DNA of 64,000 nucleotides from Synechococcus sp. Cruz-7E5. GTDB lineage: Bacteria; Cyanobacteriota; Cyanobacteriia; PCC-6307; Cyanobiaceae. The stretch's first letter is position 1; each line of letters opens with the position of its first letter. Shown here piece by piece: positions 18,008 to 41,160 of this stretch. The DNA lies in the NCBI RefSeq assembly GCF_024345995.1, contig NZ_JAGQCE010000006.1, forward strand, positions 62,001 through 126,000, read 5' to 3'. Position numbers and translations under genes: made by a program. The notes beneath the pieces are model-generated. The model was not told where the DNA came from, made no database searches, and saw nothing but the letters and a program-made list of their open reading frames with translations.

Positions 18008-19411
18008 ATGCCTGCCTATCTGGCCACTTACACCAGCAGCCAAGGCGACCAGCGTGAGCTGCGGCTGGAAGCCTCCGATCTGCCCGCGGCCCGCCGCAAC
18101 CTGCGCCGGCGAGGAATCCTTGCCAGCTCCCTGGTGCCGGCGCAGGAAGGATCCACCCCGATCTTCACCGCCACCTACGCCAATCAACGGGGCCAGCAGA
18201 AGGTGATCCAGCTGAAAGCCCCTGATCTGGCCAGCGCCAAGCGGGACCTGCGCCGACGCGGCATTGCCGCAACCTCCGTTGTGCCGATGGCCTCGACCCG
18301 CTCGGTGCAGGCCAGCGGCGGCAAGGGGAGCACCAGTCTGTTCAGCCGGGATCTGGGGACGATGTTCCAGGCCAGGCCTTCTGTGCGGGAGAAGGCGCTG
18401 TTCGCCAGCAAGCTCTCAGCGCTGGTGGATTCTGGCGTGCCGATTGTCCGGGGCCTCACCCTGGTGGCCAAGCAGCAGAAGAAACCGATCTTCCGGCAGG
18501 CCCTCCAAGCCGTCGCCAGCGAGGTGAGCCAGGGGGTGAGCCTGGGCGCAGCGATGCGCCGCTGGCCCAAGGTCTTCGATCGGCTCACCATCGCCATGGT
18601 CGAAGCCGGCGAGCTTGGAGGGGTTCTGGATCAAACTCTGAAGCGGCTGGCCCTGTTGCTGGAGCAGAACGCCAAGCTGCAGAATCAGATCAAGGGAGCC
18701 CTGGCCTATCCGGTGATCGTGCTGATGATCGCCATTGCCGTCTTTCTCGGCATGACGATTTTCCTGATCCCCACCTTTGCCGATCTCTACGCATCGCTGG
18801 GTGCGGAGCTGCCTGTCTTCACCCAGATGATGGTGAATCTGAGCGCCCTGCTTCGCTCGGCATTCTCTTTGTTTCTGATCGCCTTTCTGATCCTGGCCGG
18901 ATGGCTGTTGGTGGTTGTTTACAACACTCCCCTGGGCAAACGGCGGATCGACGGCTTCATCCTGAAGCTTCCCCTGTTCGGCGACCTTATACAGAAAACC
19001 GAAACAGCCCAGTTCTGCCGAACCTTCAGCTCCCTGAGCAAAGCGGGTGTGCCGATTCTTATGAGTCTGGAACTTGTTCGAGACACCTCTCGCAACTCAA
19101 TCTTTGCCGATGCGATCGAGGACTGCCGGGTGGAGATTCAGGACGGCATTCCCGTGAGTGTGGCCCTCTCCCGCAAGAACGTGTTTCCAGAGATGGCTCT
19201 GAGCATGTTGGCGATTGGCGAAGAAACGGGAGAAATGGATGCCATGCTATCCAAGGTCGCTGATTTCTACGAAGACGAGGTGGAGGTGGCAGTCAAAGCG
19301 CTCACCTCTCTCCTGGAGCCCATCATGATCGTGATCGTCGGCATCATCGTGGGTGTGATTCTCGTGGCCATGTATCTCCCGATGTTCTCAATCTTCGACA
19401 AGATTCGCTGA
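18008..19411 (+). CDS. pilC: Type IV pilus inner-membrane platform protein PilC, N-terminal module duplicated
   Basis: Inner-membrane platform of the type IV pilus on which PilB and PilT act. The 467-residue protein has two GspF domains (about 140-265 and 340-465), each with membrane helices and containing MIAIAVFLGMTIFLIPTF and IVGIIVGVILVAMYLPMF. It starts with two similar N-terminal modules: residues 4-44 and 53-93 align without gaps, offset 49, with 21 of 41 identical, each ending NLRRRG/DLRRRG then I...VVP-type sequence. Typical PilC has a single such module. It is the last gene of the cluster. Confidence 0.92.
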   Translation: MPAYLATYTSSQGDQRELRLEASDLPAARRNLRRRGILASSLVPAQEGSTPIFTATYANQRGQQKVIQLKAPDLASAKRDLRRRGIAATSVVPMASTRSVQASGGKGSTSLFSRDLGTMFQARPSVREKALFASKLSALVDSGVPIVRGLTLVAKQQKKPIFRQALQAVASEVSQGVSLGAAMRRWPKVFDRLTIAMVEAGELGGVLDQTLKRLALLLEQNAKLQNQIKGALAYPVIVLMIAIAVFLGMTIFLIPTFADLYASLGAELPVFTQMMVNLSALLRSAFSLFLIAFLILAGWLLVVVYNTPLGKRRIDGFILKLPLFGDLIQKTETAQFCRTFSSLSKAGVPILMSLELVRDTSRNSIFADAIEDCRVEIQDGIPVSVALSRKNVFPEMALSMLAIGEETGEMDAMLSKVADFYEDEVEVAVKALTSLLEPIMIVIVGIIVGVILVAMYLPMFSIFDKIR

Positions 19412-36880: not shown

Positions 36881-37693
36881 TCAGATCCAGGGATCTTCCG
36901 GCTCGATTGGATCGGCATCCAGGGGCCGTCGCCGCTCACTCCCGGCCCTGCGCCGTGGCGGGGCCGAAACCTCCCGTACCGGCTCCCCCCAGGCCTCCGG
37001 GTCATCCCAGTCCTCCTCCTCGTCAAGCCGATTCAGGGGGAGATCATCTGGACGTGATTTTGATTCGAGGGGATCAGGCCCCTGCCAGGGCGGCTCCTCC
37101 AGCCAGCCCTCCAACCGTTCCTCGAAGCGCCCACCCACCTCCTCGAACTGCTCCCGCCAGCGGCGGGAGCGCCTCAGGAACTCCTGACGCACGCTGGCCC
37201 GCGCCAGGGGCAGATCATCGAGGCCCTGCAGAGCAGTCATCACCTGGCCGGGCTGCTGATCGACGATGCGCTCGGGCGAGAGCAGCCAACGGCTGCTGCC
37301 AGGCAGACGCGGATCGCTGCGGGCAACCAGATAGTCGAGGATCAGGCCGCTGCGCAACTCCACGTTGGCGTCGGCGATCACACCCAGCAGTTGGTTGTCG
37401 GTACCGAGCAGGGCCGCATCCAGAAGGGTGGGCAAGCGCTCCAATGTGGCGGGTTCGGTCTCTGCGGGCTCTCCCAGCACCAGAGCCTCCTGATCGGTGA
37501 GACCGCGCAGCTGGTTGAGCCGCCAGACCAGCCGGCGGGTCCCGAAAGCCGAAGGCTTGCTCACCCAGCCCAGCAGACGGTGCACGGGCGGGTGCATCCA
37601 GCCCAGCAGACCAGCGCCATGATCGATCCCCTGGTTGCAGCGCACCCGGCGGCGCAGCAGGTCGCTGAGCAGCAGTTGCTCGGGCAGGGTCAC
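36881..37693 (-). CDS. PRC-barrel-like protein, conserved between dnaN and purL
   Basis: A 270-residue protein found, in picocyanobacterial gene order, immediately after dnaN and before purL. The middle (about residues 80-170) contains NQLLGVIADANVELRSG and SDPRLPGSSRWLLSPERI, matching the strand-turn pattern of PRC-barrel domains known from RNA maturation and photosynthetic reaction-centre proteins. The C-terminal third is acidic and low-complexity (LDEEEDWDDPE), probably disordered. It starts with GTG four bases after the dnaN stop, so it is co-transcribed with dnaN. Function is unknown. Confidence 0.75.
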   Translation of the reverse strand: MTLPEQLLLSDLLRRRVRCNQGIDHGAGLLGWMHPPVHRLLGWVSKPSAFGTRRLVWRLNQLRGLTDQEALVLGEPAETEPATLERLPTLLDAALLGTDNQLLGVIADANVELRSGLILDYLVARSDPRLPGSSRWLLSPERIVDQQPGQVMTALQGLDDLPLARASVRQEFLRRSRRWREQFEEVGGRFEERLEGWLEEPPWQGPDPLESKSRPDDLPLNRLDEEEDWDDPEAWGEPVREVSAPPRRRAGSERRRPLDADPIEPEDPWI

Positions 37694-37697
37694 GGGC

Positions 37698-38840
37698 TCA
37701 GCTGCGGATCTGAACTGGCATCACCAGGTAGGTGAAGGTCGGATCCTGCACAGAGGTCAGCACCGCCGGGGTGGTGGGGGCATTGCAGCGCAGCTCCACC
37801 CGCTCGGATGTCATCGCCTTGAGCCCATCGAGGATGTAGCGGACATTGAAGGCGATCTCGATCGGATCACCGCTGATCACCGCCGGCAGGTCTTCGGAGC
37901 CGCTGCCCACATCCTGGGCATCGGCACTGATGTGAAGCTGACCGCTGCCGGGATCACTGCTGAGCTTGACGACATTGTTGTGTTGGTCGGCGAGGACAGC
38001 CACCCGCTCGAGTGCCTGCACGAAACCACGGCGATCAAGCTCCAGGGTTCGGGTGAAGCGATCGGGGATCAGCTGGCGGTAGTTGGGATAGGTGCCATCG
38101 AGACTGCGGCTGGTGAGCACCTGGTCAGCCCAGAGGAACACCACCTGCCCGCGATCGCAGTAGAGGCTCACCGGATCGTCACTGCTGCAGGCGGAAAGCA
38201 GCCGCTCCAGTTCCCTCAGGGAGCGGGCTGGCACAGTGACCGCAAAAGGCTCACTGCCATCCTCGGCGCCGGAGAAGGCCTTCTCGAGGCGCAGAACCGA
38301 AAGGCGATGCCCATCGGTGGCGGCGCATTCGAGATCCTGATCCGCCAGGCCGAGGTGGACGCCGGTGAGCAGCTGCTTGGCCTCATCACCGCTGCTGGCA
38401 AAAAGGGTGGCCCGCAACCCCTTCACCAGCGCCTCCGGTTGGAGGCGCAGCGGAGTTCCGCTCTGAACCAGGGGCAGATCGGGAAAGTCCTCGGCAGAAA
38501 GACCGCGCATCTGGTAGCTGCCGGAGCGACTGGTGAGCTCCACCTGCTCCTGACCTTCTTCGCAGCTCAGGCTGATCGGACTGTCGCTGGAGAGGCGAGC
38601 CACGATCTCACCGAACAGGCGTGAAGGCAGGGTGATGGTGCCGCTGCTCTCAACGGAAGCGGGAAGGCTGGTCTGGATGCCAAGGCTGAGATCGAAGCCA
38701 GTGAGGCTGAGCCGGCCAGTGCCGGCATCGGCGGTGAGCAGCACATTCGCGAGAACCGGGTGGGTTGGGCGTGAAGCCACGGCACGGCTGACCAGCTGAA
38801 GGCTGGCGCTCAGTTCCGCCTGAGAGCAGACCAGCTTCAT
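37698..38840 (-). CDS. dnaN: DNA polymerase III beta sliding clamp
   Basis: Forms the ring clamp that tethers the replicative polymerase to DNA. The 380-residue protein starts MKLVCSQAELSASLQLVSRAV, consists of three similar domains and shows TNYRQLIP-type sequence (YPNYRQLIPDRF) and the C-terminal YLVMPVQIR. The frame opens 18 codons further upstream, but the ATG at 38840 gives the known N-terminus. It is the first gene of picocyanobacterial chromosomes by convention, next to the presumed origin at 38841-39344. dnaA itself is not adjacent. Confidence 0.97.
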   Translation of the reverse strand: MKLVCSQAELSASLQLVSRAVASRPTHPVLANVLLTADAGTGRLSLTGFDLSLGIQTSLPASVESSGTITLPSRLFGEIVARLSSDSPISLSCEEGQEQVELTSRSGSYQMRGLSAEDFPDLPLVQSGTPLRLQPEALVKGLRATLFASSGDEAKQLLTGVHLGLADQDLECAATDGHRLSVLRLEKAFSGAEDGSEPFAVTVPARSLRELERLLSACSSDDPVSLYCDRGQVVFLWADQVLTSRSLDGTYPNYRQLIPDRFTRTLELDRRGFVQALERVAVLADQHNNVVKLSSDPGSGQLHISADAQDVGSGSEDLPAVISGDPIEIAFNVRYILDGLKAMTSERVELRCNAPTTPAVLTSVQDPTFTYLVMPVQIRS

Positions 38841-39282
38841 CTCGATACGACTCCAGAGAGGACCAGCCCGCCAGGGGCAACACCACGCTTCCACACCGCT
38901 GTCGGAAGCGCAACGAGTTCCAGCTTGCTCGAACCGGTCTGCAGCTGCCCTCTCCCCAATCCTGTTACTGGTTTTGTCTAAATCCAGAAGAAAACAAATC
39001 CAATCCGTAGTCGTAGGGGCTGGGGAAAAAGCGGAAAAGATCCATATGCCAGTCCCAGTCTCAGATTTTGCGAATCAGAACTGAGGAAAGAGCGCCGGAA
39101 TATCGGCTGAAAACATGGTTTTCCACTCTTTCCCGGATCTGGGGAAAACGTCGACATTTCAGGAGTGCTCGCTTTGCTCCTTTTTTCCCCGTGTTGAGGC
39201 TGTTTTTCCCGTGGACGCTTTGATCAGTGCACCCCAGCTCTGTTTCGATCCGCAAGGGCGGCCAGGGGTTCTCCACAGTCCA
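38841..39282. other. Probable chromosomal replication origin (oriC) region
   Basis: The longest non-coding stretch in the window. It separates dnaN and thrC, where the replication origin of picocyanobacteria is generally placed. The central part (38960-39240) is noticeably richer in A/T than the flanking genes. By eye it holds near matches to the cyanobacterial DnaA box TTTTCCACA: TTTTCCACT at 39119-39127, TTCTCCACA at 39269-39277, two TGGGGAAAA sites (39021-39029 and 39140-39148, reverse of TTTTCCCCA), and GCTTCCACA at 38887-38895. No open reading frame of interest was found here. Inferred from location and sequence; not demonstrated. Confidence 0.65.
39109..39123. repeat. Palindrome overlapping a DnaA-box-like site
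   Basis: GAAAAC-ATG-GTTTTC, a six-base inverted repeat with a three-base spacer. Its right arm runs straight into the TTTTCCACT site at 39119-39127. Confidence 0.4.
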
Positions 39283-39315
39283 AAGCCCCGCACCGGAAAC
39301 TCCGGTGCGGGGCTT
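39283..39315 (-). terminator. Intrinsic terminator of thrC
   Basis: A perfect 15-bp inverted repeat, AAGCCCCGCACCGGA / TCCGGTGCGGGGCTT, with a three-base loop (AAC). It lies 30 bases downstream of the thrC stop on the minus strand and ends the origin gap. Its strength would shield the origin and dnaN from transcription coming out of thrC. Confidence 0.85.
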
Positions 39316-39344
39316 ATTGAGCTGTTGTCTTCAGATTTTCGCGT

Positions 39345-40403
39345 TCAGAAGCCCATCACCTTGGCCACCACATCCACCTCAGGGGCCAGGCCGGCATGGA
39401 AGGCCCCATCGCAGTTGTCGATGGCAGTGTTGGGATCCTTCAGACCGTTGCCAGTGAGCACGCAAACCACCGTGGCTCCGGCGGGCACCTGGTCGGCCTG
39501 CTGGAGCAGACCGGCAACGGAGGCAGCGCTGGCTGGTTCGCAGAACACTCCTTCCTCCCGGCCGAGCAACTGGTAGGCCTCAAGAATGTCCTGGTCGCTG
39601 ACAGCGTGGAAGGAGCCGCCGCTCTGTTCGCGCACGCTGAGGGCTTTCTCGCGGTTGGCAGGATTGCCGATCCGGATCGCGGTGGCGATCGTGTCGGGTT
39701 GCTCGACTGTGTGACCCAGCACCAGCGGCGCGGAACCACTGGCCTGGAAGCCCATCATCCGGGGCAGGCGTCGGCTGTGGCCTGCCTGCCGGTACTCCTG
39801 GAAGCCCATCCAGTAAGCACTGATGTTGCCCGCATTGCCCATGGGGATACAGAGCCAGTCCGGGGCGTCACCTAGGGCATCCACCACCTCGAATGCGGCG
39901 GTCTTCTGCCCCTGCAGGCGGTAGGGGTTGAGGGAATTCACCAGCGTGACCGGGTAGGCATCGGCGACTTCGCGCACGATCGCCAGGGCACGATCGAAGT
40001 TCCCCTTCACTGCCAGCACTTCGGCGCCGTAAACCAGGGCCTGGGCCAGCTTGCCCTGGGCCACATAGCCGTCGGGGATCAGCACGAAGGCGCGCATGCC
40101 GCCGCGGCGGGCGTAGGCGGCGGCCGCCGCACTGGTGTTGCCGGTGCTGGCGCAGATCACCGCTTCGGCGCCTGCTTCCCGGGCCTTGCTCACCGCCATA
40201 GTCATCCCCCGGTCCTTGAAGCTGCCGGTGGGGTTGAGGCCGTCGTATTTCAGGAACACCTTGATGCCACGGCCCAGCCGTGCCGCCACCGACGGCGCCG
40301 GGATCAAGGGAGTCGCCCCTTCCCGCAGGGTGATCACAGGCGTGGCATCACTTACCGGCAACCAGCGGCGGTAGGCCTCGATCAGCCCCGGCCAGTCCTG
40401 CAT
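39345..40403 (-). CDS. thrC: Threonine synthase ThrC
   Basis: PLP-dependent last step of threonine synthesis, making threonine from O-phosphohomoserine. The 352-residue protein starts [16 protein letters not shown], has the PLP lysine in [12 protein letters not shown], the phosphate-binding [14 protein letters not shown] and the [13 protein letters not shown] segment. Another 82 in-frame codons upstream have no ThrC similarity and are Pro/Arg-rich, so the ATG at 40403 is chosen. It reads towards the origin and is followed by a strong terminator. Confidence 0.94.
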
Positions 40404-40521
40404 CGTTGGTTGCTGGCCCAGTCGCCGAAGAGCTGAAAGCAGGGGCACGTCGACCGGAGGACAGGCTGATACGAATCTACGCGCCCAGTTCCCAGCAGCT
40501 CCCTGCAACGAGATCGGTGTT

Positions 40522-41160
40522 TCAGGGGGCCGGCGACGGGGTCGTTGGCTGGGCTGCTGGGGAGCTGGCTCTAGGCGCTTTGCCGCCGGACTGGGCAGCT
40601 CCATCCCCGCGTAACCCATCAAGGGGCGATTCGGAGAAAAAGCGCACAAGATCGGAGATTGAGCTTGCTTTGCTGATCACCCCCAGCAGGGCCGGAATGT
40701 TCACCGCCAGCTCCTGGGACGGATAGGCCTGCAGAAACCCAGTGGCGCTGAGGCTGCCGTTGCCGTTGGCCAGGCCCGTGATCAGGGCGCCCCGGATGGC
40801 CTGGACCCCCTTCTGGGGTGTCCGCAAGGGAGAGAAAATCCCCGCGAGTCGCTGAAGTAGCGCTTCGCCGATCCGCGTGGAGAGCAGCCGGCTGGTCAGC
40901 ACGATCGGCAGGGTGAGTTGTTGGTTCAGCAACTTGGCCACCGAGGCCGGCTCCTGATTGCTGAAACGCAGTACATCCGCCAGAAGGCCCCGGGCCTGAC
41001 CCGTCTGGGCCAGGTGTTCCAGGTCGGCCACCGGAATCGAGCGCCGGAAGGCTCCACTCACGAACACCACCTGTTCGGCGGCCTGCACCTGCAGCCCTGG
41101 CGTGACTGCACTCAATGAAAGGCCCAGCAGGACGGCCAGGAGTTTGGGCGGACGGGCCAA
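40522..41160 (-). CDS. DUF1400-family exported protein
   Basis: A 212-residue protein with a signal peptide (about residues 7-28, ending VQA) and a body resembling DUF1400, the domain normally placed in front of cyanobacterial alpha/beta hydrolases: [23 protein letters not shown] and [27 protein letters not shown]. No hydrolase domain follows, so it is a stand-alone DUF1400 unit. A longer protein with the same domain and a hydrolase lies at 48008-49582. The C-terminus is Ala/Pro/Ser-rich. The start is TTG (41160). Function unknown. Confidence 0.7.

Follow-up and report, generated by a model that had tools for sequence, protein, structure and literature searches.

A probable dnaN-linked replication origin with candidate cytosine-bearing DnaA-trios in GC-rich picocyanobacteria

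Replication origins that adjoin dnaN and carry TTTTCCACA-type DnaA boxes are established for cyanobacteria, and that of Synechococcus elongatus has been mapped by experiment and found bound by DnaA (PMC7198777, PMC4674748; here and below, citations refer to parts of the papers named). S. elongatus DnaA opens its own origin scaffold by way of boxes and trios, and the same source gives the rule for a basal unwinding system (BUS), co-oriented boxes beside trios with a spacer of at most 16 nt (PMC8287927). In Bacillus subtilis, adjacent DnaA molecules capture two bases of each trio and leave the third pointing away; Asn187 contacts the amino group of the middle base, and replacement of the middle A by C gives near-native strand separation, unlike G or T, with faster growth than either of these (PMC10721633). 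The authors of that work suggest that DnaA homologs could recognise a range of single-stranded sequences, and Pelliciari 2021 (PMC8287927) suspects deviant trios that lack the middle adenine. Some cyanobacteria, Synechococcus sp. PCC 7002 among them, replicate without DnaA (PMC7198777).

The locus described here lies in a 64-kb window (the whole stretch of DNA that was analysed, G000:C28:62001-126000) from a 3.16-Mb draft genome of 31 contigs, whose nearest named relatives by dnaN are Synechococcus sp. 1G10, J7-Johnson and WH 5701 (100, 99 and 98% protein identity). Like the oriC of S. elongatus PCC 7942 and Cyanothece ATCC 51142, the gap between dnaN and thrC in this window is intergenic, adjoins dnaN and carries a cluster of TTTTCCACA-type boxes (one mismatch allowed), two marks of dnaN-linked cyanobacterial origins, a further one being the shift point of strand skew; it differs from both in having no perfect box, with TTTTCCCCA variants instead. 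The gap is very probably the chromosomal replication origin, and the type of origin is itself ordinary and already known. We hold with considerable confidence that this origin is opened by DnaA through boxes and cytosine-bearing trios, where binding, opening and dependence on DnaA are predicted from sequence. The elements of the gap and the two flanking genes are listed in the order in which they occur from thrC to dnaN:

38841..39344, no strand: probable oriC region, the entire dnaN/thrC intergenic gap, 504 nt (synteny in relatives; skew in closed relatives)
39345..40403, minus strand: thrC, threonine synthase by the name taken from the sequence-only reading, with a PLP-dependent enzyme domain (PF00291)
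39283..39315, no strand: perfect hairpin, 15 bp with a 3-nt loop, fold z -7.6
39204..39222, minus strand: conserved block CAAAGCGTCCACGGGAAAA, weakly box-like (9-genome alignment)
39118..39149, no strand: convergent DnaA box pair, GTTTTCC...GGAAAAC, made of TTTTCCCCA (minus, 39140-39148) and TTTTCCACT (plus, 39119-39127)
39030..39038, minus strand: tandem DnaA box 1 of the opening module, TTTTCCGCT, 2 mismatches
39021..39029, minus strand: tandem DnaA box 2, TTTTCCCCA, 1 mismatch
39017..39020, minus strand: GC spacer GCCC, 4 nt, a spacing found in 91/99 box-anchored loci
39005..39016, plus strand: candidate hybrid DnaA-trios 3'-GAT GCT GAT GCC-5'; the minus strand reads CTACGACTACGG
38965..39004, no strand: A/T-rich stretch beyond the trios, 70% A+T, the highest 40-mer of the gap; a probable DNA-unwinding element
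38881..38916, minus strand: conserved block ahead of dnaN, TCGTTGCGCTTC...GTGTGGAAGCGTGGTG, which includes a 2-mismatch box at 38887-38895; a possible dnaN promoter or leader
37698..38840, minus strand: dnaN, DNA polymerase III beta clamp (Pfam PF00712, PF02767, PF02768)

The dnaN ATG start occupies 38840-38838 on the minus strand and thrC ends at 39345. An earlier, sequence-only reading of this DNA had proposed the gap as oriC and described it as the largest gene-free stretch of the window and as A/T-rich, and both descriptions are borne out: under a self-trained gene model the 504 nt of 38841-39344 exceed every other gap in the 64 kb (runners-up 399, 375 and 327 nt), the gap has a GC content of 54%, compared with 66% across the 64 kb, and no 500-nt interval (50-nt steps) is poorer in GC than the one that begins at 38951 (53.6%). 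The near matches to TTTTCCACA that it had noticed on both strands are likewise present. Four of the eight one-mismatch matches in the 64 kb (both strands) fall within the gap, namely TTTTCCCCA at 39021-39029 and again at 39140-39148 (both minus), TTTTCCACT at 39119-39127 (plus) and TTCTCCACA at 39269-39277 (plus), and the gap holds four further boxes with two mismatches; a perfect TTTTCCACA box occurs on neither strand of the 64-kb window. In 79 named relatives, 172 box matches were counted in 36,570 nt of gap and 67 in 1,423,386 nt of flank, a 100-fold enrichment, compared with a median of 1.4-fold and a maximum of 18-fold for 40 permuted motifs. Alignment of nine genomes shows that the box array is kept within the genus and that the convergent pair at 39118-39149 is nearly invariant among these nine; a comparable pair at like spacing is found in many family members, not all.

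Two further elements that had been noticed with the boxes stand only in part. The palindrome described beside a box, GAAAAC-3nt-GTTTTC at 39109-39123, is an interrupted repeat that is absent from the 8 aligned relatives and was dropped as an origin element; the box at 39269-39277, also lacking in the aligned relatives, was dropped as well. The perfect hairpin that closes the gap is real (39283-39315, 15 bp) but sits about 30 nt past the thrC stop, and 8/9 aligned same-genus genomes retain, as judged by eye, a hairpin at a like place with altered letters, for which reason it is read as probably the thrC transcription terminator and not an origin element. The terminator scan did not list this hairpin, its sole output being a weak plus-strand site at 39161-39181 where 0.8 were expected. 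No sigma-70-like promoter was found by a promoter scan of 38800-39400, and Rfam gave no match above cut-off over 37600-40700 (one at E 0.16), so that the conservation has no explanation among the families of that library. The dnaN frame remains open upstream across 38841-38894 as far as a GTG at 38894 that falls within the genus-conserved block ahead of dnaN; this may be an alternative start or a leader.

The origin assignment is supported by gene order and a box array that recur in relatives, and by skew in closed genomes. In 92/95 loci thrC shares the strand of dnaN and lies no more than 3 kb upstream of it, the remaining 3 loci beginning only 173-490 nt before dnaN and hence being unable to tell; thrC is likewise upstream on that strand in all 16 loci of a second set that had first been skipped for orientation. 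Together the two sets comprise 108 intervals, with some genomes represented twice because they draw on two collections, and omit L001 (a dnaA locus) and L016, L029 and L076 (thrC out of reach). The sequence-only reading had remarked on the absence of dnaA from the neighbourhood. The gene, which encodes domains I, III and IV, is indeed on another contig (C1:49249), but such separation is usual: dnaA is far from dnaN in 6/6 closed family members, and 1.1-1.5 Mb from it in the records of G003, G017 and G031 (about 0.9 Mb by the shorter arc in G017).

Because the genome under study is a draft, the whole-chromosome skew check proposed with the oriC reading was run on samples from three closed relatives, G003 (same genus), G017 and G031. 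Combined skew places the origin at or near dnaN in 3/3. The keto (GC + AT) half-genome contrast at dnaN ranks 9th of 321 grid positions in G003, 1st of 242 in G017 and 1st of 386 in G031 (permutations 0/2000, 0/2000 and 9/2000, respectively), and the contrast at the dnaA position is negative in all three. GC skew alone is less regular. It flips in G017 between the 1450 and 1570 kb bins, with dnaN at 1491 kb and 0/300 permutations as strong, but is weak or displaced in the other two (permutations at dnaN 235/2000 in G003 and 205/2000 in G031): when the GC split is left unconstrained, it lacks significance in G003 (187/300) and, in G031 (5/300), puts the origin near 1.52 Mb versus dnaN at 1.13 Mb, with cumulative minima at 1.72 Mb for GC (0.6 Mb from dnaN) and 0.77 Mb for keto (0.36 Mb from dnaN). 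GC skew within the 64-kb window alone has its cumulative minimum near 20 kb. The deposited records of G003, G017 and G031 (L132-L134) begin at dnaA and the combined skew origin lies at or near dnaN, about 0.9-1.4 Mb along the circle; position 1 of those records would not be the origin. G003 also contains 16 extra weak Bac_DnaA matches, many of them equal in score and frame length, which suggests that they are probably IstB-type insertion-sequence genes.

The opening module at 39005-39038 consists of two tandem boxes, 4 nt, and then 3'-GAT GCT GAT GCC-5', at a place where 3'-GAT GAT GAT-5' is found in many cyanobacteria. It resembles the B. subtilis BUS in its tandem co-oriented boxes, in a first trio that reads 3'-GAT-5' and lies 13 nt beyond the end of box 1, in the A/T-rich stretch beyond the trios and in the pocket residues kept by DnaA, and differs from it in the cytosine that forms the middle base of candidate trios 2 and 4 (39005-39016). 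DnaA would bind the off-consensus boxes of the gap, and the tandem boxes at 39021-39038 would seed a filament extending through the 4-nt GC spacer onto the plus strand, there to capture the first two bases of each trinucleotide of the trio element; the A/T-rich stretch on the dnaN side (38965-39004) would then be opened. Within this GC-rich lineage, cytosine would have taken the place of the adenine captured at the middle of trios 2 and 4, with retention of the amino group contacted by the DnaA pocket. Cytosine likewise stands for captured adenine in the engineered B. subtilis trios of Pelliciari 2023 (PMC10721633), where trios 1-3 were altered by design, whereas here the change is natural and trio 1 keeps its A (84/84). 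The shift from A/T to G/C in the boxes of GC-rich cyanobacteria has been described for Cyanobium gracile PCC 6307 in DoriC 10, an account that in its consulted part does not mention a parallel change in trios (PMC6323995). Literature searches gave no account of cytosine trios in nature, nor is there one in the consulted parts of PMC7198777, PMC4674748, PMC8287927, PMC10721633, PMC6323995, PMC10225481 and PMC13220808, supplementary tables aside.

Trios of relatives were aligned by anchoring on the boxes alone, taking the best tandem pair 110-260 nt before dnaN. CT stands exactly 4 nt past box 2 in 91/99 box-anchored loci, a count in which several anchors rely on poor boxes; the other 8 were left unanchored and out of what follows, and removal of seven repeats from the 91 left 84 distinct segments. 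Over their 336 middle positions the bases number A 193, C 134, G 2 and T 7. The middle base of trio 1 is A in 84/84; that of trio 2 is C in 45, A in 36, T in 2 and G in 1; of trio 3, A in 51, C in 30 and T in 3; and of trio 4, C in 59, A in 22, T in 2 and G in 1. On the trio strand, G occupies the first position in 84, 78, 82 and 82 of the 84 segments (trios 1-4), and the third position mostly carries T or C. All 12 distinct segments below 50% GC have A at the first three middle positions. Farther afield, 13 of 20 wider loci (19 class-level genomes and G025; G038, G049, G052 and G058, 4 of the 23 class-level genomes, are absent) carry three canonical 3'-GAT-5' trios in the same register, so the canonical form is likely the ancestral one. 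The trios of L119 appear one base out of register, and six wider loci (L112, L113, L116, L123, L124, L128) have none near dnaN; in four of these the upstream DNA contains 7 to 16 box matches, and the six may differ in origin layout or in the form of their trios.

Under the published BUS rule the module is split between its two parts. The boxes at 39021-39038 and the 4 nt that follow conform to one or two co-oriented boxes with a spacer of at most 16 nt, and 3'-GAT GCT GAT GCC-5' in register does not supply the three or more consecutive 3'-NAN-5' expected beside them; a simplified NAN rule applied to the gap picks two out-of-register candidates. The simplified rule fails in register at 70/76 CT-anchored loci of at least 60% GC, 36 of the 70 having no NAN candidate anywhere in the gap and 34 having out-of-register candidates only. 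We therefore file the module as a putative BUS variant and not as a member, since it resembles a BUS in anatomy yet fails the published sequence definition. A box-plus-trio pattern has a single perfect match in the genome, at the 39005-39038 module; with up to 2 mismatches it has 4 matches against 6 for a reversed control, so only the perfect match counts. Strict patterns, which miss many true loci, were also run over 388 genomes of the class (64 family members, this genome included, and 324 others). Canonical trios, counted genome-wide irrespective of proximity to dnaN, were matched in 177/388 (17 family, 160 others), leaving 211/388 without the strict canonical pattern; the strict cytosine form was matched in 13 genomes (12 family and one other, G356) and a guanine-middle control in 2 (none in the family; G295 and G338). 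Backward-read controls of the canonical, cytosine and guanine patterns matched about 8, 1 and 15 genomes, and single matches outside the family may be due to chance.

The DnaA of this genome aligns with the B. subtilis BUS complex 8btg at E 4e-123. Residues E183, N187, I190, I193, R202, K222, E223 and E228 (B. subtilis numbering) are identical in 33/33 cyanobacterial DnaAs, at least 9 of which come from the window's own genus; around the captured bases, 8/8 positions checked agree with B. subtilis. Position 196 contacts the third base in B. subtilis, where it is Asn; the cyanobacterial proteins have Asp (32) or Gly (1) there. Given identical pocket residues, the change in the trios needed no visible change at those positions.

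It is unlikely that the origin is here and the trinucleotide element has simply drifted with GC, unread by DnaA. Drift would account for the rise of the element's C count with GC (rho 0.67, p 5e-12, with relatedness left in) and could claim the few middle changes of C>G (2) and C>T (4). It should, however, favour A>G over A>C, as is the case at the fourfold sites of dnaN, which share the strand and start some 165 nt off (A>G 130, A>C 71), and parsimony on the dnaN protein tree counts 13 A>C and no A>G in the middle trio columns (Fisher p 2.9e-6). The middle columns changed 36 times, 29 times between A and C and once, besides the C>G and C>T already given, from T to A; first bases changed 9 times and third bases 41 times. 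Nor does drift sit well with a first base that stays G in trios 2-4 (78, 82 and 82 of 84). These counts fit a model in which the G and an amino-bearing middle base are captured and the third base is not, and A>C without A>G accords with B. subtilis, where the captured adenine can be exchanged for C and not for G or T. A>G remained 0 in all 20 random resolutions of each of four set-ups, comprising two rootings, GC-rich loci only and clean-register loci only (83/91), with largest p of 1.5e-5, 4.3e-5, 0.0028 (GC-rich only, where A>C and A>G average 7:0) and 7e-5 (clean-register). The strength of this comparison must be tempered by its small counts, a tree built from one protein and an input of all 91 anchored loci, close relatives included.

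A start at this origin that is independent of DnaA, as in Synechococcus sp. PCC 7002, with the boxes serving only to regulate dnaN, we regard as very improbable. Such cyanobacteria do exist (PMC7198777), the boxes here are imperfect and the skew of same-genus G003 is weak; yet the genome has a dnaA that encodes domains I, III and IV, the box register and the trios are under constraint, and the consulted part of PMC7198777 ties species of this kind to irregular skew, whereas G017 shows a clear V. Least credible of all, with only a slight chance of being correct, is that the gap is no more than the promoter and leader of dnaN and the origin lies elsewhere. The conserved block 41-76 nt ahead of dnaN and the G031 GC minimum 0.6 Mb away would suit it, but combined skew in 3/3 closed relatives and the negative value at the dnaA position in all three speak against it. 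We know of no promoter layout in which a box cluster is followed by a trio element.

The reading we prefer is that of an origin opened by DnaA, with the candidate trio element taken for a naturally occurring, GC-rich version of the basal unwinding system. By extension, we think it likely from these comparisons that hybrid trios with C for A are in natural use among GC-rich picocyanobacteria (Cyanobium and freshwater-type Synechococcus), the amino group being kept and G and T avoided, a code that would be written 3'-G(A/C)N-5'. If true, this would broaden the recognition code of bacterial origin opening, origins left without an opening module by the NAN rule may have one, and some of the origins reported to lack trios (15%) could be explained. 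The lineage forms a graded natural series from 3'-GAT GAT GAT-5' to 3'-GAT GCT GCT-5', and supplies ready test pairs that share the same initiator pocket and differ in their trios.

Elsewhere in the window, the gene directly downstream of dnaN (36881-37693) has no Pfam match at E 1e-5. The second-lowest GC of the window (about 55%) is found at 18600-19400, mostly within a predicted plus-strand gene at 18008-19411 that was perhaps acquired.
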